Source of the DNA: Oscillospiraceae bacterium
GTDB taxonomy: Bacteria; Bacillota; Clostridia; Oscillospirales; Acutalibacteraceae
NCBI GenBank assembly: GCA_910574995.1
Contig: CAJTCS010000001.1
Coordinates: forward strand, 496,001-560,000
Direction: 5' to 3'
Length of the DNA stretch: 64,000 nucleotides
Numbering within the stretch: position 1 is the stretch's first letter; each line of letters begins with the position of its first letter. The notes below the pieces were generated by a model that was given only the letters and a program-made list of their open reading frames with translations, did no database searches and was not told where the DNA came from. The translations under genes were made by a program, and so were the position numbers. Positions 20,384-59,163 of this stretch are shown one piece after another.

Positions 20384-20412
20384 TTGACATTTACCGCAGT
20401 TGCGGCTACAAT
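20384..20412 (+). promoter_or_regulatory. Sigma-A promoter of the TPM-domain gene
   Basis: TTGACA and TACAAT are separated by exactly 17 bp, about 40 bp before the start codon at 20451. Confidence 0.8.
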
Positions 20413-20450: not shown

Positions 20451-21320
20451 GTGAGGGGTATTCCCCGGCGTATGCCGGCGTTTTTTGCAATCGCTTTGTT
20501 TTCCCTGTTTTTTTTGTGGCTGCCTGCTGGGGCCGCCGGGCTGCCCCAGCCTGGCGGGGAGTTCTATATAAACGATGGGGCCGCCCTTCTCAGCCAAGGG
20601 ACAAAGGAGGATATCCTGGCCAAGAACCAGGAATTATATAATACATATGGCGTGCAGCTGGTCGTTTATACGGTGGATGCCCTGCCTGCGGAGGGCTATG
20701 CCGGGCGGGTGGCCTATCTGCGGTCTTTGCTGGACAGCTGGCAGGTGGGCGGCCCCCAGGGCAACGGGATGATATTGGCGCTGTCTGTGGGGGACGGGGA
20801 CTATTTGGCTGTGTCTGGCCAGGGGCTGCGCGCCCAGCTGACCAGCGAAAACCTGAAATCCCTTCTGGATACCCATCTGGAGGCCGACTTCAGCGCCGGC
20901 TCTTATGACGCGGGCGTGGCTAAGTTCTTTTCGGCCTGCGCCGCCCAGGTAGAGGCTTTCTGCGCCCAGAACCCCGCGCTGTTTTCAGGCCCCCCACAGG
21001 GCGTGCAGCCGGAAAGCAGCGGGGCTTCGGCTGTCCGGCTTGGCCAGGAGGAGGGCGCGGGCCTGGGGGCCTTGGTGTGGGTGCTTATTGGCGCGGGGGC
21101 TGTGGTGGTGGTGTGCGTGCTGCTGTTCTTCCGGGCCGGGCAGGCCAGGCGGCGGCGTTCCCGCCGCACGGTGCACGGCGGACGCGCGCGCTTGCTGCAT
21201 CCGTCCAACGCCTCGCCGGTGATACGCAACGAAACCCGGCCGACGGTACAGGTCAAGCGTTCCAGCCAACAGGCGGGGACGTACCGTTCTTCCGCCAGGG
21301 GGCGGGGGGACCGGCTTTAG
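20451..21320 (+). CDS. TPM-domain (YgcG-like) membrane protein
   Basis: The 289-residue protein has a signal sequence (about residues 8-29), an extracytoplasmic TPM domain (FYINDGAALLSQGTKEDILAKN through the LAVSGQGLR block), one transmembrane helix (about residues 203-224) and a very basic cytoplasmic tail with RRRRSRR. TPM-domain proteins (TLP18.3, Psb32, MOLO-1) occur in membrane repair and assembly; bacterial members are of unknown function. The start is GTG 20451; ATG 20472 is an alternative that would still leave a signal peptide. It has its own promoter and precedes the MBOAT gene by about 90 bp. Confidence 0.87.
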   Translation: MRGIPRRMPAFFAIALFSLFFLWLPAGAAGLPQPGGEFYINDGAALLSQGTKEDILAKNQELYNTYGVQLVVYTVDALPAEGYAGRVAYLRSLLDSWQVGGPQGNGMILALSVGDGDYLAVSGQGLRAQLTSENLKSLLDTHLEADFSAGSYDAGVAKFFSACAAQVEAFCAQNPALFSGPPQGVQPESSGASAVRLGQEEGAGLGALVWVLIGAGAVVVVCVLLFFRAGQARRRRSRRTVHGGRARLLHPSNASPVIRNETRPTVQVKRSSQQAGTYRSSARGRGDRL

Positions 21321-21407: not shown

Positions 21408-22829
21408 ATGGTATTTGCAGATCTGTTTTTTATATACGTCTTTTTGCCCCTGTGCCTGATAAGCTATATGCTGGCCCGCAGCCTTACCGCCAAAAATGTG
21501 GTATTGGTGGTGTTTTCCCTGGTTTTCTACGCCTGGGGCGAGCCCTTATGGATTTTTTTGCTGCTGTTCAGCTCTTTTTTAAACTGGGGCGTCGGGCTGC
21601 TCATCGAAAAGGGCCGGGGTACGGGCCAGGCGAAGGCCGCCCTGGCCGCGGGCATCCTTATCGATATCGCCCTGCTTATCGTGTTCAAATACAGCGGGTT
21701 CATTGTGGAGAACATAAACGCGGCTTCGGGTCTGGCGCTGCCGGTGCCCCAGCTGCGGCTGCCCATTGGCATCAGCTTTTATACCTTCCAGGCGGTGTCG
21801 TATGTGTTAGACTGCTATTGGGAGAACGTAACGCCCCAGCGGCGGTACGGCCGGTTTTTGCTGTACCTCTCCTTGTTCCCCCAGCTGATTGCCGGGCCCA
21901 TTGTGCGGTACAGCGTGGTAGAAGAGGAGATTGACAACCGTACGGTCACGGTCAACGACCTGTGCGAGGGGGCCCTGCGGGCCATTGTGGGGCTGGCGAA
22001 AAAGGTCATTTTGGCCAACAACCTGTGGGTCATTGTAGACGCTTTTTTCGGGAAGGATATCACGGGGCTTTCGGTGCTGGGCACCTGGTACACCGTGATT
22101 GCGTATTCGTTATATGTATATTTCGATTTCAGCGGGTATTCCGACATTGCCATCGGCCTGGGGCGCATGTTCGGCTTCCACTTCGACGAGAATTTCCGGC
22201 ACCCCTTTGTGTGTAAGACCATTGCCGAGTTCTGGCAGCGGTGGCATATTTCCCTGGGTTCCTTCTTCCGGGACTATCTGCTGTATGTGCCCATTTTCGG
22301 CAAGAACCGCAAGTATGTCAGCCTGTTTTTGGTGTGGTTTTCCACGGGGCTGTGGCACGGCGCGGCCTGGAACTACATCATTTGGGGCCTGTATTTTGGA
22401 TGCTTCATCTTTTTCGAGCAGAAATTGGGCAAGAAGCGCATCAAAAAATGGCCGGTGTGGTGGAAGCATATTTACAGCAAGCTGGTAATCATCATCGGCT
22501 TCGGCATCTTCTATTTCGAGGACCTGGGACAACTGGGGCAGTTTTTCCTGCATATTTCCGGCGCAGCCGTGTTCACCAATGGCGCGCCCTTCTTCGACCC
22601 GGTTACATGGGCTTCGTTCCTGAACAATATGTTCCTGGTAGGCGTCTCGATTTTGTGCAGCCTGCCCCTGCTGCCAAAACTGAAAAGCTTTTTTCTGGAA
22701 AGCCCCCAGGATGGCCTCTATACGGTGGGGCGCGTGGGCTCGGTGGTGGCATGCCTGGGCATGCTGGCAGTTGCCAGCATATTGTTGGTAGATTCTACCA
22801 ACAATGTATTCCTATATTGGCGCTTTTAA
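21408..22829 (+). CDS. MBOAT family O-acyltransferase (AlgI/DltB-like), copy 1
   Basis: The 473-residue polytopic membrane protein of the AlgI/DltB branch has the LPIGISFYTFQAVSY and FPQLIAGPIVRYS motifs, the WQRWHISLGSFFRDYL motif, and the invariant catalytic histidine in GLWHGAAWNYI (about residue 316). These enzymes move an acyl group from a cytoplasmic carrier protein across the membrane onto a surface glycan. The upstream ribosome site is weak (AAGCTGAA). It is the first gene of a four-gene set: MBOAT, DHHW protein, FkbH-like protein, acyl carrier protein. The donor would be whatever FkbH loads on the carrier. Confidence 0.94.
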   Translation: MVFADLFFIYVFLPLCLISYMLARSLTAKNVVLVVFSLVFYAWGEPLWIFLLLFSSFLNWGVGLLIEKGRGTGQAKAALAAGILIDIALLIVFKYSGFIVENINAASGLALPVPQLRLPIGISFYTFQAVSYVLDCYWENVTPQRRYGRFLLYLSLFPQLIAGPIVRYSVVEEEIDNRTVTVNDLCEGALRAIVGLAKKVILANNLWVIVDAFFGKDITGLSVLGTWYTVIAYSLYVYFDFSGYSDIAIGLGRMFGFHFDENFRHPFVCKTIAEFWQRWHISLGSFFRDYLLYVPIFGKNRKYVSLFLVWFSTGLWHGAAWNYIIWGLYFGCFIFFEQKLGKKRIKKWPVWWKHIYSKLVIIIGFGIFYFEDLGQLGQFFLHISGAAVFTNGAPFFDPVTWASFLNNMFLVGVSILCSLPLLPKLKSFFLESPQDGLYTVGRVGSVVACLGMLAVASILLVDSTNNVFLYWRF

Positions 22830-22844
22830 AAGGAGGGGAAAGGC

Positions 22845-25031
22845 ATGGATGAAAAGGGACGGCAAACAGAGCCCCAGGAGGGCTTTTTCCGGGACGAGCG
22901 GTTGTTCCCCCGGGATCGGAGGATAGGCCCCCGCCACGCGGTCCCTGGCGTCCGGGAAGGGATGACAGGCCGGATACCCTTGCACGAGGAACCAGCCGCG
23001 TATACAAGCAGCACCCGGCAGCGGGCGTATGAAGCCCCAAGCGGCCAGGCGGAAGCGAGCTATAGGGAGGGACGGCCTTCCCGGGACGAGAGGCTGTTCC
23101 CCCGGGAGAGGCAGGCTGGAGCGGCTGCGTATACCGCCCAAACCACAAGCAGCACCCGGCAGCGGGCGTATGAAGACCCAAGCGGCCGGGCGGAGGCGGG
23201 CTATGGAGGGGGACCGCCTTCCCGGGACGAGAGGCTGTTCCCCCGGGAGAGGCAGGCTGGAGCGGCTGCGTATACCGCCCAAACCACAAGCAGCACCCGG
23301 CAGCGGGCGTATGAAGACCCAAGCGGCCGGGCGGAGGCGGGCTATGGAGGGGGACCGCCTTTCCGGGACGAGCGGCTGTTCCCCCGGGAGAGGCAGGCTG
23401 GAGCGGCTGCGCATATTGCCCAGGCAAGAAGGGACATGGGGCAGGACGTATATCCGCAAGAGGATTTCTATCAGGACGGCCTGCAGGCCCTGTATGAGGA
23501 GGAAGCGCCCCGGGCCCCGCAGCCCCAGGCCCGCAGCGCACGCCGGGACCGGGCCCAGCAAAAGGCGGACCGCCGGGCGGGGCTGGAGAAGCGGATGGCT
23601 TCCCTGTCTACGCTTATCCTGGGGCTGGCTTTCCTGGGCGTATGCGTGCTGATGGTGGCGCTGCCCCGTTCTACCGTGTCCTTCATTGAGAAACGGGAGC
23701 TGGCCACCTTCCCGGAATTTTCCTTAGAAAGCTATTTTGCCGGGGAGTACACGGCGGGGATCGCGAATTTTTATGACGACACGGTGCCCATGCGGGACAG
23801 CCTGAAAAACATAGGGAACAACTTCAAGGGCCTGTTCGGCCTGCCCAAGTCGGAGGATTCGGTGGAATTTGTGGGCAACGTAAACAAGGTGAACCCCAAC
23901 GGGGGGGACGCCAGCGCTCCTCCGGCGGACAGCAGCCAGGCAGGCGCGCCGGCCTCTTCCCAAGGGGCCCAGCCGCCGGCCGGCGGGGACAGCCAGCAGC
24001 TTGCCGCGGCGGCGGAGGCCCTGAGCGGGGCGGCGGGGCGGTATATGGACGGCGAAGCCCCGGCTGCCAACCCCTTCGTACAGGAGGAGGCCGACGGGGA
24101 CTTGACGGAGAACGGGCTGATCGTGCTGAAGCAGGACGGCCATTTCCGGGCGCTGGAGCTGTTTGGCGGGGGCAGCGGGGACAGCTATGCCCAAAGCCTG
24201 AACGAGCTGCATAGCCAGCTGGGGGACGGGGTGCAGATCTGGTCTATGCCGGCGCCCTTAGCCTGCGAGTTCTACACCCCCAGCAATTTCCAAGAGTTTA
24301 CCACCAGCCAGTCCGATTGCTTTGACAAGGTGGCTGCCAAGCTGGACGCGGGCATCCATTCCATCAACATCTGCGGCGTTTTGTCCCAGCATGTCACCGA
24401 GCCCATCTATTGCCGCACCGACCACCACTGGCAGCCCCTGGGCGCTTATTATGCTGCGAAGGCCTTTGCCGAGATGGCGGGTGTGCCCTTCAGCGATATC
24501 AGTACCTATACCCCTGGCAAGGTGGAGGGTTTTGTGGGCAGTATGTACGGCTTTACGGGTTCTTCAGACATCTTGAACGACCCGGAGGATTTCACCTATT
24601 ACACCCCCAGCGCCCCTTATACCAGCGTATACTATGACACGTATTTTGATTTCCAATGGGATGATGACGACCTGTTTTCCGGCGCGTCGGGTTCGGACGC
24701 CTATATGATCTACCTGGGGGGCGACGAGTATGTCATCAAGACCGACACCCAGGTGGACAACGGCCGGAAGCTTTTAATTGTAAAGGACAGCTATGGCAAT
24801 GCCACGGTCCCCTTCTTCACCGGCTCTTTCCAGCAGATATACGTGCTGGACATGCGCTATTTCCAGCGCAACCTGGTCAGCTTTATCCGGGACATGGGCA
24901 TTACCGACGTGCTGTTTACCATGAGCTCTTACTCTTTGGTTGGGGACGCGGCGGACAACCTGTCGAACCTGATCAGCCAGAACGCCGGGGAGGTCATTAC
25001 AGACAACCAGCCGGCAGGGGGAAGCGAGTGA
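22845..25031 (+). CDS. DHHW (AlgX/DltD-like SGNH-fold) surface protein with N-terminal tandem repeats
   Basis: The 728-residue protein has three parts. Residues 1 to about 245 are cytoplasmic, charged and repetitive: the phrase RDERLFPRER recurs at residues 16, 80, 127 and 174, and three 47-residue units are nearly identical. One transmembrane helix follows (about residues 255-276). The extracytoplasmic part has a low-complexity Ala/Gly/Pro linker, then the DHHW domain with the acetyltransferase-like CRTDHHWQPLG motif (about residue 524) and LIVKDSYGNA. DHHW/AlgX/DltD proteins partner MBOAT transporters in acylating glycans. It lies 15 bp after the MBOAT gene. The repetitive cytoplasmic tail is unusual for the family. 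Confidence 0.88.
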   Translation: MDEKGRQTEPQEGFFRDERLFPRDRRIGPRHAVPGVREGMTGRIPLHEEPAAYTSSTRQRAYEAPSGQAEASYREGRPSRDERLFPRERQAGAAAYTAQTTSSTRQRAYEDPSGRAEAGYGGGPPSRDERLFPRERQAGAAAYTAQTTSSTRQRAYEDPSGRAEAGYGGGPPFRDERLFPRERQAGAAAHIAQARRDMGQDVYPQEDFYQDGLQALYEEEAPRAPQPQARSARRDRAQQKADRRAGLEKRMASLSTLILGLAFLGVCVLMVALPRSTVSFIEKRELATFPEFSLESYFAGEYTAGIANFYDDTVPMRDSLKNIGNNFKGLFGLPKSEDSVEFVGNVNKVNPNGGDASAPPADSSQAGAPASSQGAQPPAGGDSQQLAAAAEALSGAAGRYMDGEAPAANPFVQEEADGDLTENGLIVLKQDGHFRALELFGGGSGDSYAQSLNELHSQLGDGVQIWSMPAPLACEFYTPSNFQEFTTSQSDCFDKVAAKLDAGIHSINICGVLSQHVTEPIYCRTDHHWQPLGAYYAAKAFAEMAGVPFSDISTYTPGKVEGFVGSMYGFTGSSDILNDPEDFTYYTPSAPYTSVYYDTYFDFQWDDDDLFSGASGSDAYMIYLGGDEYVIKTDTQVDNGRKLLIVKDSYGNATVPFFTGSFQQIYVLDMRYFQRNLVSFIRDMGITDVLFTMSSYSLVGDAADNLSNLISQNAGEVITDNQPAGGSE
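23006..23424 (+). repeat. In-frame 141-bp tandem repeat (three copies) in the DHHW gene
   Basis: Copies begin at 23006, 23147 and 23288, each 141 bp (47 codons). The second and third differ at only a few bases; the first is more diverged and the last is incomplete. A degenerate fourth unit precedes them. The near identity implies recent duplication and probable copy-number variation between strains. Confidence 0.95.
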
Positions 25032-25095
25032 TCTTATAAGGCCCTTTGGCCTTTGGCAAGGCCCGGGGCAGAGCCTGGGCGGAAAGGAGCGCGTT

Positions 25096-26886
25096 ATGCG
25101 GGAACTGGAATACCCCTTCCAGCCGGGGGAAATCATCAGCAAGCGTAAAGCCCTGCGCCGGGCCCTGGCGGCGGACGGCACAGCCCGGCTGCAGAAGAAG
25201 ATAGCGGTGCTGGGCGGGTCTACCACCAGCGACATTGTAAAAACCATGGAGCTTTTCCTGTTAGACGCGGGGATAGAGCCGGTGTTTTACGAATCGGAAT
25301 ACGGGCAGTATTACCAGGACGCCATGTTCCCCCCGGAAGGGCTGGCAGACTTTTCCCCAGACGTGGTGTTCATCCACACCACCGGGCGGAACATTGCCAG
25401 CTGGCCCGCGGTGGGGGAGGCCGCCCAGGAGGTGGACGGCAAGCTGGAGGCGGAGCTGGGGAAATTCCGCGCCATGTGGGAGAGCCTGGAACAGCGGTTC
25501 CATTGCCCCATCATACAAAACAACTTTGAGAAGCCTTTTTTCCGGCTGCTGGGGAACCGGGACGCCTGGGATATCCACGGCCGGACGAACTTTACCAACC
25601 GGCTGAACCAAGCCTTTTGCGATTGGGCGGCGGGCCATCCGGGGTTTTACGTACACGATGTCGACTACCTTTCCGGCGACTTCGGCCTGCTCCGCTGGGC
25701 GGACCCCGCCTATTGGAACCTGTACAAATACGCCATGTGCCTGGAGGCCATCCCGGCTTTCGCGTTCAGCGTGTCCAACATCATCAAGTCCCTGTTTGGC
25801 AAAAACAAAAAAGCCTTGGCCCTGGACCTGGACAACACCCTGTGGGGCGGCGTGGTGGGGGACGACGGCGTAGAGGGCATTGAGATTGGCCAGGAAACCG
25901 GCGTCAGCCAGTCGTATTACGAATTCCAAAGCTATGTGAAGCAGCTGAAAAACCTGGGCGTCCTACTGACGGTATGCTCGAAAAACGACGAAGAGAACGC
26001 CCTGGCCGGTCTGGGGCATCCCGAGGGCGCGCTGCGGCCTGGGGATTTCATCCTGATTAAGGCAAACTGGGAAAACAAGGACCGGAACATTGCCGAGACC
26101 GCCGCCCAGCTAAATATTTTGCCCGAGTCTATCGTCTTTGCCGACGACAACCCCGCCGAGCGGGAGATCGTGCGGGCCCAGCTGCCGGGGGTTATCGCGC
26201 CGGAGCTGGAGGGCGTGGAAAACTACATTGCCACTATAGACCGGGGTGGGTATTTCGAGGCCACCACCTTCAGCGAGGACGATTTGAAGCGCAACGAGAT
26301 GTACAAGGCGAACGCCCTGCGGGCGGCGCAGCAGGCTTCTTTCGCGGATTATGGCGAATACCTGAAAAGCCTGGGGATGCATGCCGTTATAGACGACTTT
26401 TTGCCCATATACCTTACGCGCATCACCCAGCTGGCCAACAAGAGCAACCAGTTCAACCTGACCACCCGGCGCTATACCACCGGGCAGATGGTACAGGTTT
26501 TCGAGAGCCCGGAATACGTACGCTTATACGGCAAGCTGGTGGATAAGTTCGGGGACAACGGGGTGGTATCGGTGGTCATCGGCCATAAGGACGGCCAGGC
26601 CCTGGACATCGAGCTGTGGCTGATGAGCTGCCGGGTGTTGAAACGGGACATGGAATTCGCCATGTTGGACCGGCTGGTGGAGCGGTGCCGGGAAGAGGGC
26701 GTGGCCACCCTGCGGGGGTATTATTTCCCTACCGCCAAAAACGGCATGGTACGGGAACTGTATGGCACGCTGGGCTTTCAAAAGGTCAGCGGGGACGAGG
26801 CGGGCCCTTCGGTTTGGGAGCTGGATACGGCCGGCTATACGCCCCAATGCCAGGTAATACAGGTCTCCGGCAACCCCGAAGGGTGA
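25096..26886 (+). CDS. FkbH-like HAD-IIIC protein (probable glyceryl-ACP-forming enzyme)
   Basis: The 596-residue protein has an N-terminal SGNH-like region, a central HAD domain with nucleophile motif LDLDNTLWGG (about residue 240) and VFADDNPAE. Its C-terminal part is GNAT-like and contains the FkbH hallmark RITQLANKSNQFNLTTRR (about residue 440). Characterised FkbH-type proteins take 1,3-bisphosphoglycerate, dephosphorylate it and load a D-glyceryl unit on a dedicated acyl carrier protein. A carrier protein gene follows directly and the MBOAT/DHHW pair precedes it. I infer that it supplies an acyl-ACP donor for surface modification. The exact acyl group (glyceryl or lactyl-like) is not provable here. 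Confidence 0.9.
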   Translation: MRELEYPFQPGEIISKRKALRRALAADGTARLQKKIAVLGGSTTSDIVKTMELFLLDAGIEPVFYESEYGQYYQDAMFPPEGLADFSPDVVFIHTTGRNIASWPAVGEAAQEVDGKLEAELGKFRAMWESLEQRFHCPIIQNNFEKPFFRLLGNRDAWDIHGRTNFTNRLNQAFCDWAAGHPGFYVHDVDYLSGDFGLLRWADPAYWNLYKYAMCLEAIPAFAFSVSNIIKSLFGKNKKALALDLDNTLWGGVVGDDGVEGIEIGQETGVSQSYYEFQSYVKQLKNLGVLLTVCSKNDEENALAGLGHPEGALRPGDFILIKANWENKDRNIAETAAQLNILPESIVFADDNPAEREIVRAQLPGVIAPELEGVENYIATIDRGGYFEATTFSEDDLKRNEMYKANALRAAQQASFADYGEYLKSLGMHAVIDDFLPIYLTRITQLANKSNQFNLTTRRYTTGQMVQVFESPEYVRLYGKLVDKFGDNGVVSVVIGHKDGQALDIELWLMSCRVLKRDMEFAMLDRLVERCREEGVATLRGYYFPTAKNGMVRELYGTLGFQKVSGDEAGPSVWELDTAGYTPQCQVIQVSGNPEG

Positions 26887-26948
26887 GCCGCCCCAGCCGC
26901 TGCCGCTTGCTTAACATGATATAACAAGGAAAAGAAAGGATGAGCACC

Positions 26949-27194
26949 ATGGACATGAGAGAAATTTTTGCAAAACTGGACCGCGTGTTCCAAGAGGTCT
27001 TCGACGACCCCGGCATACGGGTAACGCCCCAGACCACGGCTGACGACATCGAGGACTGGGACAGCCTGGAGCACATCACCCTGATCTCCGCCGTAGAGAG
27101 GGCGTTCCGCATGAAGTTCAAAATGGGGGAGATATCCTCTATGCGGAACGTGGGGGAGATGGCTAACATCATACAAGAGCGGTCCAGGGGCTGA
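26949..27194 (+). CDS. Acyl carrier protein linked to FkbH-like protein
   Basis: The 81-residue acidic four-helix carrier has the phosphopantetheine site in the DWDSLEHI motif (Ser39). I chose ATG 26949, with GAAAGGA 8 nt upstream; an ATG three codons earlier abuts the ribosome site. It is the last gene of the set MBOAT, DHHW, FkbH-like, ACP, and a bidirectional terminator follows. By analogy with DltC and with the FkbH-partner carriers of antibiotic pathways, it would hold the activated acyl unit at the cytoplasmic face of the MBOAT protein. A fatty-acid-synthesis role is less likely from the context. Confidence 0.93.
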   Translation: MDMREIFAKLDRVFQEVFDDPGIRVTPQTTADDIEDWDSLEHITLISAVERAFRMKFKMGEISSMRNVGEMANIIQERSRG

Positions 27195-30382: not shown

Positions 30383-30570
30383 GGGAATGTCCAAAGCGAG
30401 TATTTTAAAAAATGAAGAAACACAAAAGTTTCGTCCACCTTTTCAAAGGTGGTGGGGTATTTAGGGGGCGAGGGTTGCCAGTGGCAACCGTTCCGAGCCG
30501 ACCGAGCTGGAAGGCGAGACTTAAAGCCCCTAAACCGCCGGAGGCATAAAACGCGTGGTTGGGCACTCCC
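30383..30570. mobile_element. MITE-like insertion with inverted ends, target duplication and branched secondary structure
   Basis: This 188-bp segment starts GGGAATGTCCAA and ends with the inverse of GGGAGTGCCCAA (10 of 12 matching). It is flanked by an 8-bp direct repeat ATCATAGG at 30375-30382 and 30571-30578. The left copy lies in the perfect palindrome CCCCTATCATAGGGG after the MerR gene. Inside it are the perfect hairpins CCACCTTT/AAAGGTGG (30435-30452) and GGTTGCC/GGCAACC (30473-30489). An outer stem TTTAGGGG/CCCCTAAA (30460-30467 with 30527-30534) encloses the second. It has no coding capacity. This is what an old non-autonomous insertion would look like; a structured RNA is the alternative. 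Confidence 0.55.
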
Positions 30571-30585
30571 ATCATAGGGCCCGCG

Positions 30586-30614
30586 TTGACAAAAAGGGGG
30601 AAATGTGGTTCAAT
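30586..30614 (+). promoter_or_regulatory. Promoter of the second DHHW/MBOAT pair
   Basis: TTGACA and TTCAAT are separated by 17 bp, about 30 bp before ATG 30645 and immediately right of the MITE-like insertion. Confidence 0.7.
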
Positions 30615-30644
30615 AATACCATATACACGTTTCAGGAGATGCCT

Positions 30645-31826
30645 ATGAAGCTTTTACAAAAGATACTGGACGGCGGGTTCCTTTTCCTGCTGGGGGCGTT
30701 CCTTTTGGCGGGGCTTGTGAAGACCGCCTTTTTCCCCAAAGAGCTGAACACTTATGAAAACCGGTATGCCAACGCGCTGCCTGTCCCCACGGTGGGCACG
30801 GTGCTGGACTGTACCTTCCAGGATGGGGTGGAAGACGCCCTTTCCGACCAGGTGCTGCTGGCCCAGACCTGCAAAAAAGCCTATAATATGGCCAATTCCG
30901 CCCTGCAGCTGCATATGCTTTCCGGCTTCATCCAAAGCAACCCCGGCCGGTATATCAAGCTGCTGGGGCTGAAGACCTTTGGCGGGGAAAACCTGGTATA
31001 CGATATGCAGCCCTTCCCCAGCATCCAACAGGCCCTGGAAGAGCGGGCCCAAAGCCTGAACGCCTTGATGGGGGGGAACCCCGGGCCGGAATACTACGCC
31101 TACTATATTGAAAAAGACTCGGATATGGACTTTGAGACCGGGGAGAAGTCGGGGGCTTACGAGCTTTTGCAGGCCCGGCTGGACCTGCCGGCCGGGCACA
31201 TGGCCCGGCTGGAAATGGACGGCTTCGATACCTACCGGGAGTATTTTTATAAGACCGACCACCACTGGAACTACAAGGGGTCTTATCAGGGGTATACCCA
31301 GGTGGCAAAGCTGCTGGGGGTGGACGAGCCCCTTTTGCTGCCCCAGGAGGAGAAGGTGATTTCCCACAGCTTCAGCGGCTCGAAAGCGGCGGGCATGGGG
31401 GCCAAGGATACCTTTGTAGAGGATTTTACCGCCTACCGGTTCCGTTTCCCGCCCATGGAGGTATGGCATGACGGGGAGCCGGCCGGGGACTATGGCAGCC
31501 AGGAGGCCTATCTTGCCGGCGCCGCGGCCCTGGAAGTGGAGTACGGTTATTTCTATGGGGGGGACTGGGGCCAGCTGGTGCTGGATACCGGCCGGGAAGG
31601 CAGGGGGAACCTTTTGGTCATCGGCGAATCGTATGACAACGCGATTTTAAAGCTGCTGGCCTCCCACTTCCACAAGACCTATTCCATCGACCTGCGCAAT
31701 TATGAGAAGTTTAACGGCGGGCCTTTTTCCTTTTCCCAATACCTCCAGGAGCACGACGTCCAGAAGGTGCTGTTCAATGGCAGCATCGGCTTTTACACTT
31801 CGTCCGAATTGTTGCCGGGGAGCTGA
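30645..31826 (+). CDS. DHHW family protein (AlgX/DltD-like), copy 2
   Basis: The 393-residue protein has one N-terminal transmembrane helix (about residues 8-28) and an extracytoplasmic DHHW domain with FYKTDHHWNYKGSYQGY (about residue 203) and VIGESYDNAI (SGNH-like catalytic region). It lacks the long repetitive cytoplasmic tail of the protein encoded at 22845. ATG 30645 lies 6 nt after AGGAG; upstream in-frame codons lie at or before the promoter. It precedes the second MBOAT gene by 5 bp, so the two form a transfer pair acting on a surface glycan. No carrier or activating gene follows, so it may share the FkbH/ACP donor encoded upstream. Confidence 0.88.
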   Translation: MKLLQKILDGGFLFLLGAFLLAGLVKTAFFPKELNTYENRYANALPVPTVGTVLDCTFQDGVEDALSDQVLLAQTCKKAYNMANSALQLHMLSGFIQSNPGRYIKLLGLKTFGGENLVYDMQPFPSIQQALEERAQSLNALMGGNPGPEYYAYYIEKDSDMDFETGEKSGAYELLQARLDLPAGHMARLEMDGFDTYREYFYKTDHHWNYKGSYQGYTQVAKLLGVDEPLLLPQEEKVISHSFSGSKAAGMGAKDTFVEDFTAYRFRFPPMEVWHDGEPAGDYGSQEAYLAGAAALEVEYGYFYGGDWGQLVLDTGREGRGNLLVIGESYDNAILKLLASHFHKTYSIDLRNYEKFNGGPFSFSQYLQEHDVQKVLFNGSIGFYTSSELLPGS

Positions 31827-31831
31827 AAGAA

Positions 31832-33259
31832 ATGGTTTTTAGCAGTCTCAGTTTTTTATATGCTTTTTTGCCTTTATGCGCCTTATCTTATTACGCTTGC
31901 GCGGGCAGGCGCTGGCGCAACGGGGTGCTGTTGGCGTTCTCTTTGGCGTTCTATGCCTGGGGCGAGCCGAAAAACGTCGCCCTGATGCTGCTGGCCTCTT
32001 TGGCGGCGTACCTGTGCGGCCTGGGCATAGGCCGGTCGAAGAAAAAAAGCGCGCGCAAAGCCTGGTTGGTTTTGGGTGTGGCGCTGCTGGCCGGCAACCT
32101 GTTTGTCTTTAAATACCTAAATTTTTTCTGCGGCAACCTGCGGGTCCTGGGCGTCCCCCTTTCTGTAAAAGAGATCGCCCTGCCCATTGGTATCAGCTTC
32201 TATACCTTCCAGATCCTTTCTTATGTGATCGACCTCTACAGGGGGGAGATACAGGTGCAGAAAAATTATTTTTACCTGACCCTGTACGTCAGCTTCTTCC
32301 CCCAGCTGATTGCCGGGCCCATTGTGCGGTACCAGACCATCGAGGAGGAAATCCTTACCCGCCGGGAAACCTTGGAGGACGTGGCGGCGGGCTTGAAGAG
32401 GTTCCTTACCGGCCTGGCGAAAAAGGTCATCCTGGCCAACAACACGGCGCTGGTGGCGGAGACGGTATATGGGGGGGACCCGGCCCTGTACGGCACGGCG
32501 CTGTACTGGGTGGCGGCGCTTTCCTATGCCCTGCAGATCTACTTCGATTTTTCCGGCTACAGCGACATGGCCATCGGCCTGGGGCGTATGTTCGGCTTCC
32601 ACTTCTTAGAGAATTTCAACTACCCTTACACGGCTTTGTCCATCACGGACTTCTGGCGGCGGTGGCACATCTCCCTGTCCACCTGGTTCCGGGACTATAT
32701 CTATATCCCCTTGGGGGGCAACCGGGTGGGGAAGCCCCGCTGGGTGCTGAACCTGCTGATCGTGTGGGGCCTTACGGGTTTCTGGCACGGGGCCCAGTGG
32801 AATTTTGTGCTGTGGGGGCTGTATTACGGGGCGATCCTGCTTCTTGAAAAGCTGTTCTTAGGCCGGTATTTGGACAAGTGCCCCCAAGGGGTGCGGTGGC
32901 TGTATACCATGTTTTTCGTGCTCATCGGCTGGGTGCTGTTCGACCTGACGGACTTTAGGCAGATGGCCGGGGCCCTGGCCATGATGTTCCGCTTTGCCCC
33001 TACGGATTTTGCCGGCATGCTGGCGGCGGATACCTCCCTTGTAATGGGCTTGTTATACATGGCGCTGGGGCTGGTGTTCTCTTTCCCGGTGGGCCGGTGG
33101 CTGGGGCAGTGGAAAGCAAAGGGGCTGGGGCGTGCGCCGGGCCTGGTGCGGGCAGGGGCCGCTGCTGCGGAAAACCTGTTCTATCTGGGGCTGCTGGGGC
33201 TGTGTGTGGTGTATATCATCAGCGCCACCTATAACCCCTTTATCTACTTCCGGTTCTAG
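31832..33259 (+). CDS. MBOAT family O-acyltransferase (AlgI/DltB-like), copy 2
   Basis: The 475-residue paralogue of the 21408 protein has the same motif set: LPIGISFYTFQILSYVID, FPQLIAGPIVRYQ, WRRWHISLSTWFRDYIYIP and the catalytic histidine in GFWHGAQWNFV (about residue 318). It carries a somewhat different C-terminal helix bundle. Unlike copy 1, its motif reads IPLGGNRVGKPR, as in classical AlgI-type enzymes such as alginate and wall-glycan acetylases. It is coupled to the DHHW gene 5 bp upstream. The donor could be acetyl or the same carrier-bound acyl group as copy 1. Confidence 0.94.
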   Translation: MVFSSLSFLYAFLPLCALSYYACAGRRWRNGVLLAFSLAFYAWGEPKNVALMLLASLAAYLCGLGIGRSKKKSARKAWLVLGVALLAGNLFVFKYLNFFCGNLRVLGVPLSVKEIALPIGISFYTFQILSYVIDLYRGEIQVQKNYFYLTLYVSFFPQLIAGPIVRYQTIEEEILTRRETLEDVAAGLKRFLTGLAKKVILANNTALVAETVYGGDPALYGTALYWVAALSYALQIYFDFSGYSDMAIGLGRMFGFHFLENFNYPYTALSITDFWRRWHISLSTWFRDYIYIPLGGNRVGKPRWVLNLLIVWGLTGFWHGAQWNFVLWGLYYGAILLLEKLFLGRYLDKCPQGVRWLYTMFFVLIGWVLFDLTDFRQMAGALAMMFRFAPTDFAGMLAADTSLVMGLLYMALGLVFSFPVGRWLGQWKAKGLGRAPGLVRAGAAAAENLFYLGLLGLCVVYIISATYNPFIYFRF

Positions 33260-40351: not shown

Positions 40352-43042
40352 TTGGCAGAAGAGAGGCGGGCTGGCAAGGGCTGGCGGGACAATTATTTCC
40401 TGAAGGCGTTTTTCCTGGGGCTGGGGCTTTCGTTTTTGGTTTTCCTGCCCTTTATGGTCATAGACGGGGGGCGGTTCCTGTTCTACGGGGACTTCAACGT
40501 GCAGCAGGTGCCTTTTTACCGGCTGGCCCACGACGCCATACGCAGCGGGCAGATTGGCTGGAGCCAGCATACGGACCTGGGGGCCAACTTCATCGGGTCT
40601 TATTCCTTTTACCTGCTGGGCAGCCCCTTCTTCTGGCTGACGCTGCCCTTCCCCTCCCAATGGCTGCAATATATGATGGGCCCGCTGCTCATCCTGAAAT
40701 TTGCCTGCGCAGCCTTAACGGGGTATGTTTTTCTGCACCTGCATACCAAAACCCGGGACGCGGCGCTGGTCGGCGCGGTGCTGTATGCTTTCTCGGGCTT
40801 TTCCGTATATAATATATTTTTCAACCACTTCCACGAGGCCATCGTGTTCTTCCCCCTGCTGCTGGCCGCCCTGGACGAATATATGGCGCGCAGGCGGCGG
40901 GGGCTGTTTGCCCTGGCGGTGTTCGCCTGCTGCCTGACCAACTATTACTTCTTTGTGGGGCAGGTCACGTTTACCCTGATCTATTTCTTCCTGCGGCTGT
41001 TCTGCGGCAGCTGGCGCGTCTCGTTCCGGGATTTCCTTTTCCTGGCGCTGGAGGCCGTGCTGGGGGTGGGGCTGGCCTGCGGGCTGCTGGTGCCCTCTGT
41101 GCTGGCGGTGCTGCAGAATTCCCGCACGGGGAACATCATAAACGGCTGGAACGCGCTGCTGTACAACAAGAACCAGCGGTATTTCCACATTATCGAGTGC
41201 TTCTTCTTCCCGCCGGACCTGCCCGCCCGGCCCAACTTCACCCCCGACTCCGAGTCCCGGTGGGCGTCGCTGGGGGCGTGGCTGCCGCTGTTCAGCATGG
41301 CGGGGGTTGTCGGCTGGCTGCAGCTGCGCCGCAAGCATTGGCTGAAGAAGCTTTTGTGGATCCTCTTTGCCATGGCCCTGGTGCCGGGGCTGAACTCGGC
41401 TTTCCAGATGATGAACAGCGCCTATTATGCCCGGTGGTTCTACATGCTTACCCTGGTGATGGCGCTGGCCACGGCGATGGCACTGGAGGAAGAGCGGGTA
41501 AACTGGAAACGCGCGATAACCTGGACGTTTGCCATTACCCTGGCGTTGGCGGCGGCGGTGGCCTTTACCCCGGTGGTGGAGACTGTGGACGGGGAGAAAA
41601 GCGTATCCTTTGGGCTGATGCAGTACCCCACCCGGTTTTGGAGCTATGTGGCGGTATCGCTGCTGTCTTTAGGGGCGCTGGTGTACCTGTTCACCTTCCG
41701 GCGCACCAGCCGGGCCGCTTTCCGCCGGGGGACCCTGTGGGCCCTGTCGGCCATTTCCGTGCTGTATTCCATCTTTTTCATCGCCCTGGGCAAGACCCAG
41801 GCCGACTATACCTGGGACCACCTGATCCCCTATGAGTTAAACGGCGGGGCCGGCGTCGACCTGCCGGACCTGCAGCAGTGCCGGTCTGACTTCTACGAAT
41901 CCACAGACAACGCGGGCATGTTCTGGCAGGTGCCCACCATCCAGGCCTTCCACAGCATCGTCCCTGGGTCTGTCATGGAGTTCTACGAGTCTATCGGCGT
42001 GCAGCGGGACGTGGCATCCCGGCCGGAAGTGAGCCATTATGGCCTGCGGGGCCTCACTTCGGTGCATTGGCTGTTCGACGACGACCACGACGGGGAGTTT
42101 TTTGCCGGGGAGGACGCCGACCAGCCGGCCATGCCGGGCTGGGCCTACTATGGCAACGCCAACGGGTACGATATCTGGGAGAACGAATATTACGTGCCCA
42201 TGGGCTTTTCCTATGACTATTGCATCAGCCGCAGCGAGTATGAGGAACTAAGCCAGGGGAGCGAATCCGGCGTGGGGACGCGGGAGCTTTGCATGATGCG
42301 GGCCATTGTGCTGGAAGACAAGGATATGGAGGCTTTCCAGGGCCTGCTGCCCCGGCTGCCAGAGGGCATGAAGGTGTTCACCCGGGAGGCGTATAGGCAG
42401 GACTGCCTGGACCGGGCGGCTTCGGCCTGCCAGTCTTTCGAGTATACCCGCACCGGGTTTTCCGCCACGCTGGATACGGAGACGGAAGAGCTGGTGTTCT
42501 TCAGCGTGCCCTATGAAAAGGGCTGGTCCGCCCAGGTGAACGGCGAGCCCACCCAGGTGGTGCGGGTGAACGTAGGCTTTATGGCCGTGGTGGTGCCCCG
42601 GGGGGAACAAGTGCAGATCGAGTTCACCTACCGCACCCCTGGGCTTATGGCAGGCCTGGCAGCGGCGCTGGCGTCTTTGGGGCTGCTGGCAGCCTATCTG
42701 CTGCTGGCCCGCCGTTTCCGGCGCAGGGCCGCCCACCGGCCCGCCGGCTGCCTGATGCGGCTGGGACGGTTCTCAGACTATGAAAAGAAGCGCCATGCCA
42801 CTTTCCTGCGCCCAGGCGCGCTGTCCCTGGGGCATACACGCCAGCCGGCCCTGCCGCCAGAAGGGCCGGTGGGGCAGCCCGCTTCGCCGCCTGACGGGAA
42901 GGGGGGCCCGCCGCCGGTGGATTATGTGGATTCCCTGGCTGGCAGCGCCCATACGGAAGGAGGGCCTGCCGTTATAGAAGGCGGCGTGCCGGCGGCGCCG
43001 GAGGCCCCCGCAGAAGAAACCAAGGAGGAGCCCGCGCCATGA
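40352..43042 (+). CDS. YfhO family membrane protein
   Basis: The 896-residue protein has about a dozen hydrophobic helices in the first 480 residues. The N-terminal FLPFMVIDGGRFLFYGDFNVQQ region and the YSFYLLGSPFFWLTLPFP segment are typical of YfhO (GT-C-like fold). A large extracytoplasmic domain follows, then a last helix (about residues 770-790) and a charged, proline-rich cytoplasmic tail. YfhO proteins glycosylate lipoteichoic acid or other surface polymers in Bacillota, using undecaprenyl-linked sugars made by a partner GT2. The next gene, overlapping by 4 bp, encodes such a GT2. The start is TTG 40352 behind GGGAGG at 10 nt. Confidence 0.9.
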   Translation: MAEERRAGKGWRDNYFLKAFFLGLGLSFLVFLPFMVIDGGRFLFYGDFNVQQVPFYRLAHDAIRSGQIGWSQHTDLGANFIGSYSFYLLGSPFFWLTLPFPSQWLQYMMGPLLILKFACAALTGYVFLHLHTKTRDAALVGAVLYAFSGFSVYNIFFNHFHEAIVFFPLLLAALDEYMARRRRGLFALAVFACCLTNYYFFVGQVTFTLIYFFLRLFCGSWRVSFRDFLFLALEAVLGVGLACGLLVPSVLAVLQNSRTGNIINGWNALLYNKNQRYFHIIECFFFPPDLPARPNFTPDSESRWASLGAWLPLFSMAGVVGWLQLRRKHWLKKLLWILFAMALVPGLNSAFQMMNSAYYARWFYMLTLVMALATAMALEEERVNWKRAITWTFAITLALAAAVAFTPVVETVDGEKSVSFGLMQYPTRFWSYVAVSLLSLGALVYLFTFRRTSRAAFRRGTLWALSAISVLYSIFFIALGKTQADYTWDHLIPYELNGGAGVDLPDLQQCRSDFYESTDNAGMFWQVPTIQAFHSIVPGSVMEFYESIGVQRDVASRPEVSHYGLRGLTSVHWLFDDDHDGEFFAGEDADQPAMPGWAYYGNANGYDIWENEYYVPMGFSYDYCISRSEYEELSQGSESGVGTRELCMMRAIVLEDKDMEAFQGLLPRLPEGMKVFTREAYRQDCLDRAASACQSFEYTRTGFSATLDTETEELVFFSVPYEKGWSAQVNGEPTQVVRVNVGFMAVVVPRGEQVQIEFTYRTPGLMAGLAAALASLGLLAAYLLLARRFRRRAAHRPAGCLMRLGRFSDYEKKRHATFLRPGALSLGHTRQPALPPEGPVGQPASPPDGKGGPPPVDYVDSLAGSAHTEGGPAVIEGGVPAAPEAPAEETKEEPAP

Positions 43043-44022
43043 ACCCAACCGTATATTTTGTCATCCCCTGTTATAACGAGCAAGAGGTGCTGGAAGAGAC
43101 CGTAAAGCGCCTGACGGCCAAGCTGGGCGCTATGGGCGGCCAGGGGCTGGCAGGCCCTAAAAGCCGCGTCTTGCTGGTGGACGACGGCAGCAAGGACAGG
43201 ACCTGGGAGATCATTGCCCGGCTGCATAAAGAAAACCGTTTGGTCGAGGGGGTCAAGCTGGCCCACAACCGGGGCCACCAGCACGCCCTTTTGTGCGGGC
43301 TGATGACAGCCATGCCCCTGTGCGACTGTGCCATCAGCCTGGACGCGGACCTGCAGGACGACGTGGACGCCCTGGACCAGTTTGTGGCCAAATACCTGGA
43401 GGGCTGCGACGTAGTCTATGGCGTGCGCAACAAGCGGGACACGGATACCTGGTTCAAGCGCACCACGGCCGAGGGCTTCTACAAGGTGATGAAGCTGCTG
43501 GGGGTGGATGTGGTTTTCAACCATGCGGATTACCGCCTGATGAGCCGGCGGGCCTTAGAGGGGCTTTCGGAATACAAAGAGGTGAACCTGTTCCTGCGGG
43601 GGATCGTGCCGTTGATCGGCTACCGCAGCGACTATGTGTATTACGACCGCCACGAGCGTTTCGCGGGGGAATCGAAATACCCCCTGAAAAAGATGATTTC
43701 CTTGGCCCTGGACGGCATCACCAGCTTCAGCGTGAAGCCCTTGAAGCTGATTTCCAACTTTGGCATTCTGATTTCCATTCTCAGCGTGTTTGGCCTGTTA
43801 TATGCCCTTGTCTCGTATTTTGCCGGCTGGGCCGTCTCCGGCTGGACGGCCATCGTGTGTTCCATTTGGCTTTTGGGCGGCCTGCAGATGCTGTGCCTGG
43901 GGGTTGTGGGGGGGTATATCGGCAAGATATACAGCGAGGTGAAGGCCCGCCCCCGTTACCGGGTGGAGGAGTTGTTACAACAGGAAGAAACAGGCCCAGA
44001 ACCAACCGGAAGCAAAAAATAA
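43039..44022 (+). CDS. Family 2 glycosyltransferase (GtrB/DPM1-like)
   Basis: The 327-residue protein has an N-terminal GT-A catalytic domain with VIPCYNEQEVL, LVDDGSKDRTW, and the metal/nucleotide motif SLDADLQDD, and two C-terminal transmembrane helices (about residues 236-300). GtrB/DPM1-like enzymes move glucose or a related sugar from a nucleotide to undecaprenyl phosphate at the inner membrane face. The 4-bp overlap with the yfhO-like gene suggests a two-step surface-glycosylation system: this protein makes the lipid-linked sugar and the YfhO protein transfers it outside. Confidence 0.94.
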   Translation: MNPTVYFVIPCYNEQEVLEETVKRLTAKLGAMGGQGLAGPKSRVLLVDDGSKDRTWEIIARLHKENRLVEGVKLAHNRGHQHALLCGLMTAMPLCDCAISLDADLQDDVDALDQFVAKYLEGCDVVYGVRNKRDTDTWFKRTTAEGFYKVMKLLGVDVVFNHADYRLMSRRALEGLSEYKEVNLFLRGIVPLIGYRSDYVYYDRHERFAGESKYPLKKMISLALDGITSFSVKPLKLISNFGILISILSVFGLLYALVSYFAGWAVSGWTAIVCSIWLLGGLQMLCLGVVGGYIGKIYSEVKARPRYRVEELLQQEETGPEPTGSKK

Positions 44023-56936: not shown

Positions 56937-58337
56937 ATGGCAGCTATCAAGCTGGGCTTCGCGCCTACCAGGAGAAGTATTTTCAGCGCGCCGGACGCGG
57001 TGAAATACCGGGGCCTTACCGCCGACCGCCTGCGGGAGCTAGGCGTGGAGTTTGTAGACATTGACGACATAAACGAAGAGGGCCTGCTCTATGATGAAAA
57101 CGACCGGCTGAAGGTCCTGGAAAAATTCAAGGCGGCGGGGGTGGACGGCCTGTTCCTGCCCCACTGCAATTTCGGCACAGAATACCTGTGCGCCAGGCTG
57201 GCAAAAGACCTGGGCGTACCTGTGCTGCTGTGGGGCCCCCTGGACGAGCGGCCGGAACCCAACGGCGTGCGGCTGCGGGACACCCAGTGCGGGCTGTTCG
57301 CCACTGGGAAGGTGCTCAGGCGCTTTGGCGTGCCCTTTACCTATATGACAAACTGCCGGCTGGAGGACCCCGTGTTTGCCCGGGGCGTAAAGGATTTCCT
57401 GGCTGTGTGCAATGTGGTGAAAACCTTCCGCCATATCCGCATTCTGCAGATAGGGCCCCGGCCCTTTGATTTTTGGAGCACCATGTGCAACGAGGGGGAG
57501 CTGCTGGAAAAATTCGGCGTGGAGCTGTCGCCCATCCCCCTGCCGGAGCTGACCGCGGAAGTGAAGCGGGCCATTGCCGAGGGGGGCGAGGTGCGGGAGG
57601 CCATTGCCTATTGCAAGGAAAATATGGAGATAAATGTGACCGAGGAGCAGCTTGAAAACATGGCGGGGCTGGCTGTGGCCATGGAGCGCCTGATGGAAAA
57701 GTACCATTGCGGCGCCGGGGCCATCCAGTGTTGGAACGCCTTGCAGGGTGAGCTTGGCATTATGCCCTGTGCCGCCAACGCCCTCCTCAACGAAAAGGGC
57801 CTGCCCGTTGTCTGTGAGACGGACATCCATGGGGCCATCACCGCCTTGTTGGTGGAAGCCGCCGCTAACGACGGGACCCGCGGCTTTTTTGCCGACTGGA
57901 CCATCCGCCACCCGGACATAGAGAACGGCGAGCTTTTGCAGCACTGCGGCCCCTGGCCCATTTCCTGCGCCAAAGAGAAGCCCCGCATCACGTACCCCTT
58001 AGCCTTCGATCACCCCGGGGCCATCACAGCCGAGGCAAAGCACGGGGAGCTGACCCTGGCCCGGTTCGACGGCGATAACGGCCAATACAGCCTGCTTTTG
58101 GGCAATGCCAAAGGCGTAGACGGCCCCAAAGGCATGGGGACCTACCTGTGGGTAGAGGTGGAGAACATCAAGCGGCTGGAGGCCAAGATTGTGGAGGGGC
58201 CGTACATCCACCACTGTGTGGGCATACACAAAGACGTGGTGCCGGTGCTGTATGAAGCCTGCAAATACCTGGGCGTTGCGCCCGACCTTTACGATCCCAT
58301 TGAGGAGGAAGTGAGGGCGTATCTCCGTGGGGAATAA
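56937..58337 (+). CDS. L-fucose/L-arabinose isomerase-family protein
   Basis: The 466-residue protein resembles the fucose/arabinose isomerase superfamily. It has an N-terminal AAIKLGFAPTRRS, a central FLPHCNFGTEYLCARLAKD, the IGPRPFDFWSTMCNEGELL segment, and the metal-binding core AIQCWNALQGELGI, CETDIHGAITALL and the late Asp/His residues. Family enzymes interconvert aldoses and ketoses; several clostridial members have no proven substrate. It is the first gene of an operon with split transketolase, a sugar kinase and a hydrolase, so it probably makes the ketose that the kinase phosphorylates. ATG 56937 lies after GAAGGAGG. Confidence 0.87.
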   Translation: MAAIKLGFAPTRRSIFSAPDAVKYRGLTADRLRELGVEFVDIDDINEEGLLYDENDRLKVLEKFKAAGVDGLFLPHCNFGTEYLCARLAKDLGVPVLLWGPLDERPEPNGVRLRDTQCGLFATGKVLRRFGVPFTYMTNCRLEDPVFARGVKDFLAVCNVVKTFRHIRILQIGPRPFDFWSTMCNEGELLEKFGVELSPIPLPELTAEVKRAIAEGGEVREAIAYCKENMEINVTEEQLENMAGLAVAMERLMEKYHCGAGAIQCWNALQGELGIMPCAANALLNEKGLPVVCETDIHGAITALLVEAAANDGTRGFFADWTIRHPDIENGELLQHCGPWPISCAKEKPRITYPLAFDHPGAITAEAKHGELTLARFDGDNGQYSLLLGNAKGVDGPKGMGTYLWVEVENIKRLEAKIVEGPYIHHCVGIHKDVVPVLYEACKYLGVAPDLYDPIEEEVRAYLRGE

Positions 58338-59163
58338 GGAATTCGAGATGCTCTCGTGGGAGCTGCGCCGGGACGTGCTGGACATCATCATGGCCGGGGG
58401 CGGGGGGCACATCGGCGGCGATATGAGTGTGCTGAACGCCCTGCTGGTGCTGTACAAAAACCACCTGCGTATTACGCCGGAAACCACCAACGACCCGGAC
58501 CGGGACCGCTTTGTGCTGTCAAAGGGCCATGCCATGGAAGCCTATTACGCCGTGCTGTGCCACCGGGGGTTCCTGGACCTGGATGACGTAAAGGCACGGT
58601 TCAACAAATGCGGTTCGCCCTATATCGGGCACCCCAATAACAAGCTGCCGGGCATTGAGATGAACTCCGGCTCGCTGGGCCACGGCCTGCCTGTCTGCGT
58701 GGGCATGGCCCTGGCGGGCAAGCGGGACGGCAGAAAGTACCGGGTGTACACCATTTTAGGGGACGGCGAGCTGGCCGAGGGCTCGGTGTGGGAAGGGGCC
58801 ATGGCCGCTGGCCACTATAAGCTGGACAATCTCTGCGCCGTTGTGGACCGCAACGGCCTGCAGATTTCCGGCCCCACCGAGGATGTGATGTCCCACGAGC
58901 CCTTGCGGGCCCGCTGGGAAAGCTTTGGCTGGCATGTGCTGGAGGTAAACGGCGACAGCATCCCAGAGCTGGACGGGGCTTTCTCCCAGGCCAAGTCCCT
59001 TAAGGGGAAGCCCACGGCCATTATAAGCCGCACTACCAAGGGCTTTGGCAGCCCGCTGATGGAGAACAAGGCCGAGTGGCACCACCACCTGCCTGCTGCT
59101 GAAGAATATGAAGCCATCAAAAAGGATTTCGAAAAAGGGAAGGGGGCGGCCGCCCGTGAATAA
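58327..59163 (+). CDS. Transketolase, N-terminal (TPP-binding) subunit
   Basis: The 278-residue protein equals the first domain of transketolase. It includes GGHIGGDMSVLNALLVLY, SKGHAMEAYYAVL, the TPP/metal-binding GDGELAEGSVWEGAMAA and DRNGLQ. The C-terminal half is encoded by the next gene, overlapping by 8 bp. Split transketolases in sugar operons are usually substrate-specialised, as in the apulose-4-phosphate transketolase AptA/AptB. The start is GTG 58327, overlapping the isomerase stop. Confidence 0.92.
   Translation: MGNKEFEMLSWELRRDVLDIIMAGGGGHIGGDMSVLNALLVLYKNHLRITPETTNDPDRDRFVLSKGHAMEAYYAVLCHRGFLDLDDVKARFNKCGSPYIGHPNNKLPGIEMNSGSLGHGLPVCVGMALAGKRDGRKYRVYTILGDGELAEGSVWEGAMAAGHYKLDNLCAVVDRNGLQISGPTEDVMSHEPLRARWESFGWHVLEVNGDSIPELDGAFSQAKSLKGKPTAIISRTTKGFGSPLMENKAEWHHHLPAAEEYEAIKKDFEKGKGAAARE

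Follow-up and report, generated by a model that had tools for sequence, protein, structure and literature searches.

Described acylation systems and the operon

To our knowledge, those surface acylation systems that depend on a carrier protein charge it by means of an ATP-using, AMP-forming ligase. The Dlt system, which D-alanylates teichoic acids, combines such a ligase (DltA) with a carrier protein, an MBOAT membrane acyltransferase, and an outer enzyme of the SGNH superfamily (DltD). Glycerate esters occur in gellan gum, a polysaccharide of a Gram-negative bacterium that carries L-glyceryl substituents, whereas the D form would be expected from FkbH. FkbH proteins and stand-alone acyl carrier proteins (ACPs) are proposed makers of glyceryl-ACP in the methoxymalonyl-ACP and tetronate modules of FK520, tetromadurin, and bafilomycin, where the glyceryl-ACP is oxidised or condensed into a polyketide. 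An MBOAT and an SGNH protein can also form a relay in surface acylation; PatB1, a characterised enzyme of the DHHW family, works with an MBOAT in acylating a wall polysaccharide (PMC9487903). In this PatA1/PatB1 pair, which O-acetylates the secondary cell wall polysaccharide of Bacillus cereus, the acyl group is acetyl, and the passages of PMC9487903 consulted name no dedicated carrier or loader for the pair.

We analysed a window of 64,000 nucleotides from a genome of 3.45 Mb in 54 contigs. The original prediction had described four cotranscribed genes here, encoding an MBOAT, a DHHW protein, an FkbH, and an ACP. The open reading frames and profile searches bore out all four identities and positions, with the genes arranged head to tail on the + strand in that order and separated by 15, 64, and 53 bases. 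The features discussed below are the following.

20384..20412, + strand: promoter-like site TTGACA-17-TACAAT before the TPM-domain gene (consensus scan, 11/12)
20451..21320, + strand: TPM-domain membrane protein (PF04536, 74.6 bits)
21408..22829, + strand: MBOAT membrane acyltransferase, 473 aa (PF03062, 77 bits; cut-off 27)
22845..25031, + strand: DHHW/SGNH protein, predicted outer acyltransferase, 728 aa (PF14286, 137 bits; cut-off 25)
23004..23422, + strand: array of three tandem repeats of 141 bases (47 residues) within the head region of the DHHW protein (95% matches by Tandem Repeats Finder)
25096..26886, + strand: FkbH protein, 596 aa, predicted glyceryl loader of the ACP (TIGR01686, 259.2 bits; cut-off 146.65)
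26940..27194, + strand: ACP, 84 aa, with phosphopantetheine site Ser42 (PF00550)
30555-33259: another DHHW/MBOAT pair, of 423 and 475 aa, 3.4 kb downstream of the operon
L122:5233-9721 (contig C13 of the same genome): AMP-ligase locus with an MBOAT, a 389-aa protein, an AMP-ligase, and a small ACP

The TPM-domain gene lies 87 bases upstream of the MBOAT gene and is probably the first gene of the four-gene unit. A homologue sits just upstream of the MBOAT gene in all 10 of the same-genus loci that were checked (L017-L022 and L160-L163) and in neither of the two loci checked from other families (L027 and L029). The promoter-like site is the best match of the consensus scan, which returned 7 matches in the window against 2.7 expected; it is a candidate, a consensus match being by itself no evidence of function. 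In the same scan, nothing resembling a terminator was listed downstream of the ACP gene. Given the promoter-like match before the TPM-domain gene and the outcome of the terminator scan, cotranscription of the genes for TPM, MBOAT, DHHW, FkbH, and ACP is plausible. That the gene set goes beyond chance follows from the linkage and co-inheritance tests described below.

The MBOAT is related to DltB (6BUG; 7.8e-25 by phmmer), whose two conserved His have aligned counterparts in His280 and His317. Against the NCBIfam DltB equivalog, the MBOAT scores 146.9 bits, where 375 are required. The DHHW protein, which also matches ALGX (32.8 bits; cut-off 26.5), has a long, repeat-bearing N-terminal head that is predicted to be cytoplasmic, a hydrophobic span at about residues 257-273, and a DHHW domain that is predicted to lie outside. 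A profile search of the PDB recovered 4NZK, a solved DHHW protein (1.8e-138), PatB1 of B. cereus (5V8D, 1.6e-22), and AlgJ; no match to DltD was found in this search or in Pfam, where DHHW and ALGX were the only families to reach an E-value of 0.01. The motifs of the DHHW family are present (DHHW at 526-529, Ser 649, and DXRY at 669-672). When the protein was aligned with a hand-picked 30 of 36 complete DHHW genes, H528, S649, D669, and R671 were invariant in 31/31 rows and D526 was kept in 30/31. The spacing of S649, D669, and R671 equals that of S337, D357, and R359 of PatB1, as these residues are given in the excerpted text of PMC9487903.

In the FkbH protein we distinguish FkbH_N (26.7 bits, just under the cut-off of 27), HAD-IIIC, and C-terminal acyltransferase regions. 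Residues D244, D246, T248, S295, K328, D350, D351, and C512 were invariant in all 61 rows of an alignment of the window protein with a hand-picked 60 of its 78 complete relatives; we take D244/D246/T248, S295, K328, and D350/D351 to be HAD motif residues and C512 to be the C-terminal Cys. The HAD motif residues and the Cys are also kept in the FkbH of a relative's hydroxymalonyl-ACP-like cassette (L030). The sole solved relative of the FkbH by sequence is 3SLR, an uncharacterised Bacteroides protein that covers the N-terminal and HAD parts. An extra N-terminal region brings the window FkbH to 596 aa, as compared with 356 aa in L030 and 367 aa in bafilomycin (PMC3679948).

The ACP scores 20.3 bits against PF00550, just under the cut-off of 20.8, and its nearest solved structure is 2LML (7.2e-17). 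As in Dlt, it is a dedicated carrier with a phosphopantetheine serine: Ser42, in a DSL motif, was invariant in the 28 aligned ACPs (a hand-picked 27 of 70 complete ACPs and that of the window). The DltC model is absent from its NCBIfam matches.

A methoxymalonyl or tetronate pathway was considered and rejected, as the operon holds none of the partner genes. By open reading frames and profile search it has no gene for oxidising glyceryl-ACP, and unlike the polyketide modules it lacks both the 3-hydroxyacyl-CoA and acyl-CoA dehydrogenases of the FkbGHIJK cassette and the FabH-like ring-forming enzyme of tetronate operons. A hydroxymalonyl-type cassette looks different: in L030, the two dehydrogenases lie beside FkbH and ACP.

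Linkage and co-inheritance of FkbH, ACP, and MBOAT

For an unselected sample, 391 genomes were taken evenly across the class; 24 of them, the source genome included, have an FkbH of the operon's type (match at E 1e-100). Of the 23 loci other than our own, 22 have a same-strand ACP no farther than 4 kb from FkbH, 22 an MBOAT no farther than 6 kb, and 8 a DHHW gene no farther than 3 kb. The one locus that lacks both ACP and MBOAT, L212, is a contig of 4.2 kb; FkbH sits at the contig's end, and a DHHW gene is present. Chance adjacency can be rejected: with four MBOATs per 3.45 Mb, an MBOAT on the same strand within 6 kb would be expected at about 1 locus in 100.

The same partners are inherited together. 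Among 60 genomes (our own and 59 relatives), 15 carry a close FkbH; note that G044, which has a weak match to an FkbH of another type, was scored as lacking it. A close ACP is present in 14/15 genomes with FkbH and in 0/45 without (Fisher 8.6e-13, kinship ignored), the one FkbH genome without a close ACP being G015, which is 63% complete. A close MBOAT (at least 56% identity, the next being 47%) is likewise present in 14/15 and 0/45. The one FkbH genome without it is G004, where the ACP adjoins a divergent MBOAT and no DHHW gene was found. Within one genus the FkbH set is patchy, occurring in 13 of 29 genomes. In four genomes (G010, G018, G019, and G023), FkbH lies elsewhere, beside pheST, while the genes for TPM, MBOAT, DHHW, and ACP are still together. 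These unlinked FkbHs are about 60% identical to that of the window whereas the MBOATs are 80-81% identical, and they may therefore be replacements by another FkbH; either way, an FkbH is retained. The partnership of FkbH, ACP, and MBOAT is thus real.

In a selected survey of the GTDB collection we examined the best 80 of 594 confirmed FkbH loci, most of them from Clostridia, with single records labelled Treponema, Endomicrobiellum, Synergistaceae, and Bacillus. (The surveyed loci include the near-copies L063/L066 and L045/L046, and L031 is evidently a contig of G011.) Of these best 80, 70 have an ACP no more than 4 kb from FkbH, 57 an MBOAT no more than 6 kb away, and 30 a DHHW gene no more than 3 kb away; all four genes come together in 24. 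Where over 6 kb of sequence was available on both sides, as at 45 loci, the counts were 42 for ACP, 33 for MBOAT, and 12 for all four. Note that the ORF caller keeps the longest frame, and the DHHW gene of L083 was lost from these counts through an overlap. A same-strand MBOAT within 6 kb was absent from 23 of the best 80 loci, some of which sit at contig ends; 7 of them have FkbH alone, 9 FkbH-ACP, 4 DHHW-FkbH-ACP, and 3 FkbH-ACP with tailoring genes. Three further loci have an MBOAT and no ACP. FkbH-ACP may therefore serve other enzymes too. The original prediction had offered co-occurrence of the four genes in other genomes as a check on itself. In this respect the strict set, with the DHHW gene, turned out to be one form, while the core of FkbH, ACP, and MBOAT is general.

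To place the MBOATs, we built a quick tree of 75 of them, with SH-aLRT supports and without bootstraps, in which those near an FkbH were admitted only if complete, longer than 1250 bases, on the strand of FkbH, and within 5 kb of it. Most of the FkbH-linked MBOATs belonged to one of two sets, with 29 and 27 rows and an SH-aLRT of 100 each; FkbH-near MBOATs of L054 and L108 and one of those of L061 lie outside both. The 29-row set includes the MBOAT of the window, and its neighbours, joined at 92, are MBOAT/DHHW pairs without an FkbH-type ACP. (Here and in the tree, the label 'no carrier' means only that there is no FkbH-type ACP within the available flank, because the ACP profile misses the AMP-ligase-type ACP of L122.) The 27-row set also includes the MBOAT of that AMP-ligase locus. 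On this tree, the minimum number of changes between the labels FkbH-linked and not FkbH-linked is four.

The source genome has four MBOATs in its 3.45 Mb. At L122, the 389-aa protein has no Pfam match, the AMP-ligase is the genome's highest-scoring DltA-like protein (238.5 bits against a cut-off of 559.85), and the small ACP scores 17.2 bits against 20.8 in Pfam and 29.9 against 68 with the DltC model. Since the ligase falls so far below the DltA cut-off, this Dlt-like set possibly loads something other than D-alanine. It seems, then, that the genome supplies one of its MBOATs by way of an ATP-dependent ligase and a different one by way of FkbH. Two further MBOAT/DHHW pairs (30555-33259 and L123) have neither an AMP-ligase nor an FkbH supply, the latter because the genome holds one FkbH and one ACP of the operon's type; the pair at 30555-33259, which has no FkbH or operon-type ACP of its own, provides a built-in comparison.

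The view that FkbH-ACP stands where DltA and DltC stand is well supported by the linkage at 22 of 23 loci, by co-inheritance even where FkbH is unlinked, by the FkbH-linked MBOATs falling mainly in two clades, and by the AMP-ligase/ACP/MBOAT arrangement of L122. Other parts of the parallel to Dlt in the original prediction fared differently: the roles of carrier and loader hold, whereas the outer protein is a PatB1-type DHHW protein in place of DltD and the MBOAT falls short of the DltB equivalog. Canonical Dlt was rejected on three counts, namely the lack of a DltA in the operon, where FkbH occupies its place (the genome's best DltA-like protein being on another contig), an MBOAT under the DltB cut-off, and the lack of a DltD match. 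The predicted acyl group differs as well, being a neutral glyceryl from an acyl phosphate, unlike the D-alanine of Dlt. The operon would work like Dlt and is built from PatA1/PatB1-type parts and an FkbH-ACP loader; it is no Dlt member, because its outer enzyme is a PatB1-type DHHW protein and the closest relatives of its MBOAT are in MBOAT/DHHW pairs that lack such a carrier.

A predicted route for glyceryl and competing readings

On the gene identities, conserved catalytic residues, linkage, co-inheritance, and repeated pairing described above, we consider it likely that the operon encodes a carrier-protein-dependent surface acylation machine that is fed by glycolysis and places D-glyceryl on a surface glycan. 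Each chemical step, and the topology, is modelled on characterised families. FkbH would take the acyl phosphate 1,3-bisphosphoglycerate and keep the three-carbon unit bound, probably through a thioester to Cys512, while its HAD domain would strip the remaining phosphate; D-glyceryl would then move to the phosphopantetheine arm on Ser42 of the ACP. By analogy with its family, FkbH very probably loads D-glyceryl on the ACP in this way. Glyceryl-ACP would dock on the MBOAT from the inner side, and the MBOAT would pass the glyceryl group across the membrane; we are strongly inclined to accept this coupling of glyceryl-ACP to the MBOAT if FkbH does load D-glyceryl. Outside, the DHHW protein would accept the group on the nucleophile Ser649, with His528, Asp526, and, in the oxyanion hole, Arg671, and would esterify a hydroxyl of a cell-surface glycan.

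The same machine could handle another acyl group if glyceryl-ACP were first converted, for example to a pyruvyl, lactyl, or L-glyceryl form, by enzymes encoded elsewhere. Candidate converting genes do stand beside FkbH-ACP-MBOAT in related loci, as MaoC with SDR, as a VOC protein, or as MaoC with a split transketolase; FkbH itself is sometimes unlinked, so that other parts could be too, and the window also encodes, at a distance of 31 kb, the N-terminal half of a split transketolase. Against this, MaoC, SDR, VOC, and transketolase genes are all absent from the operon, and among the 24 four-gene loci (of the best 80 of 594) a converting gene within 7 kb was found only in L084 (SDR-like), as it was among the unselected four-gene loci only in L200 (transketolase-C-like, several genes downstream). 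We therefore regard prior conversion as rather unlikely. A different reading makes the MBOAT and DHHW protein an ordinary acetyl-CoA-dependent O-acetylation pair of the PatA1/PatB1 type, with FkbH-ACP making glyceryl-ACP for something else and the operon simply common to both. Sequence alone cannot distinguish an MBOAT that uses ACP from one that uses acetyl-CoA, and this reading can point to the nearest relatives of the MBOAT and DHHW protein, which are pairs without an FkbH-type ACP, to the nearness of the DHHW protein to PatB1, and to FkbH-ACP loci with no MBOAT nearby. Yet it is improbable in view of the 60 genomes, where the close MBOAT never occurs without the close FkbH, of the MBOAT within 6 kb at 22/23 unselected FkbH loci, and of the second MBOAT clade that is likewise paired with FkbH-ACP; moreover, the same genome has separate MBOAT/DHHW pairs without an FkbH-type ACP, and a dedicated FkbH-ACP argues against an acetyl donor.

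Finally, the MBOAT might transfer glyceryl to a lipid or a soluble molecule, as part of a pathway for a secreted natural product or glycolipid, and not to a wall glycan. FkbH-ACP is indeed known from polyketide pathways, and papers on aeruginosins and suomilides mention both FkbH and MBOAT. However, no polyketide or peptide synthetase was found in the operon or in the 11 scanned of 21 recurrent neighbour families, and some related loci sit among glycosyltransferase genes; we thus hold a small-molecule product to be highly improbable.

If D-glyceryl transfer to a surface glycan is correct, the carrier would be charged by a high-energy acyl phosphate of glycolysis, and the cell surface would be tied to central metabolism. 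FkbH would also no longer be confined to polyketide pathways and would count as an envelope enzyme, one carried by 24/391 sampled genomes of the class. In open-licence PMC papers, we found no report that links FkbH with surface acylation, with DltB and DltD, or with O-antigen, none that joins HAD-IIIC to an acyltransferase, and none that combines MBOAT with an acyl carrier protein and SGNH; FkbH with exopolysaccharide led only to a software paper. Because only the open-licence PMC papers were covered, this is weak evidence of absence. By the proposed transfer, glycans of gut bacteria should carry an ester on which that literature yielded no report, and the identity of the ester is a directly testable question.

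Related loci and candidate acceptor glycans

Several genes recur beside FkbH-ACP in other loci, namely those for a MaoC-like dehydratase (alone or with an SDR), a VOC protein, and the halves of a split transketolase. A MaoC-like dehydratase and an SDR lie near FkbH-ACP in nine loci (L065, L067, L070, L078, L085, L098, L201, L202, and L213), which suggests as a hypothesis that glyceryl-ACP may be converted there by dehydration to pyruvyl-ACP and then by reduction to lactyl-ACP. Eight loci (L055, L097, L101, L107, L197, L205, L206, and L210) have a VOC protein resembling methylmalonyl-CoA epimerase, and there the acyl group may be epimerised. In five (L048, L090, L103, L104, and L110), FkbH, split transketolase halves, a MaoC-like protein, ACP, and MBOAT occur together, an arrangement that could turn glyceryl-ACP into something larger. 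In the window itself, a stand-alone N-terminal half of a transketolase, followed by an ORF, occupies positions 58327-60097.

Together, the related loci suggest a family of glycolysis-fed surface acylations. More broadly, FkbH-ACP may be a plug-in acyl supply for membrane acyltransferases, a generalisation to which we give about an even chance; the bare form would supply D-glyceryl, that with VOC the other enantiomer, that with MaoC and SDR lactyl, and that with split transketolase a branched or extended acyl group. If so, gut Clostridia would possess a hitherto undescribed class of modifications of surface glycans, built from 1,3-bisphosphoglycerate, and surface decoration would directly follow glycolytic flux. 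An SGNH-looking protein accompanies some of the variant loci. In L052, where it belongs to family K3, it matches GDSL at 42.3 bits (cut-off 32.9); the matches are weak in L205 (28.6 against 32.9) and in L202 (DUF1574, 16.6 against 29.1), and in L203, L213, and family K2 the SGNH motif was read by eye only. In a separate group of loci (L057, L058, L060, and L088), FkbH lies directly upstream of one common run of genes, joined by an ACP in L057, L058, and L060; the run starts with a phosphofructokinase (scanned in L060 only), followed by genes that resemble dnaX, ybaB, and recR by eye.

As to the acceptor, a GT2/CDP-glycerol-polymerase protein or a homologue of it lies just upstream of the operon in five related loci (L034, L038, L039, L042, and L047; Pfam scan of L042 only). 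The operon has no glycan polymerase next to it in the window, and the source genome lacks the CDP-glycerol polymerase family, so a teichoic-acid target is unsupported in that genome. The genome does encode two sulfatase-family proteins, in open frames of 646 and 710 codons, that may be lipoteichoic-acid synthases. Pairs of YfhO and GT2 proteins are known from lipoteichoic acid glycosylation, and a YfhO-family membrane protein with an adjacent GT2 glycosyltransferase is found in the window at positions 40352-44022.
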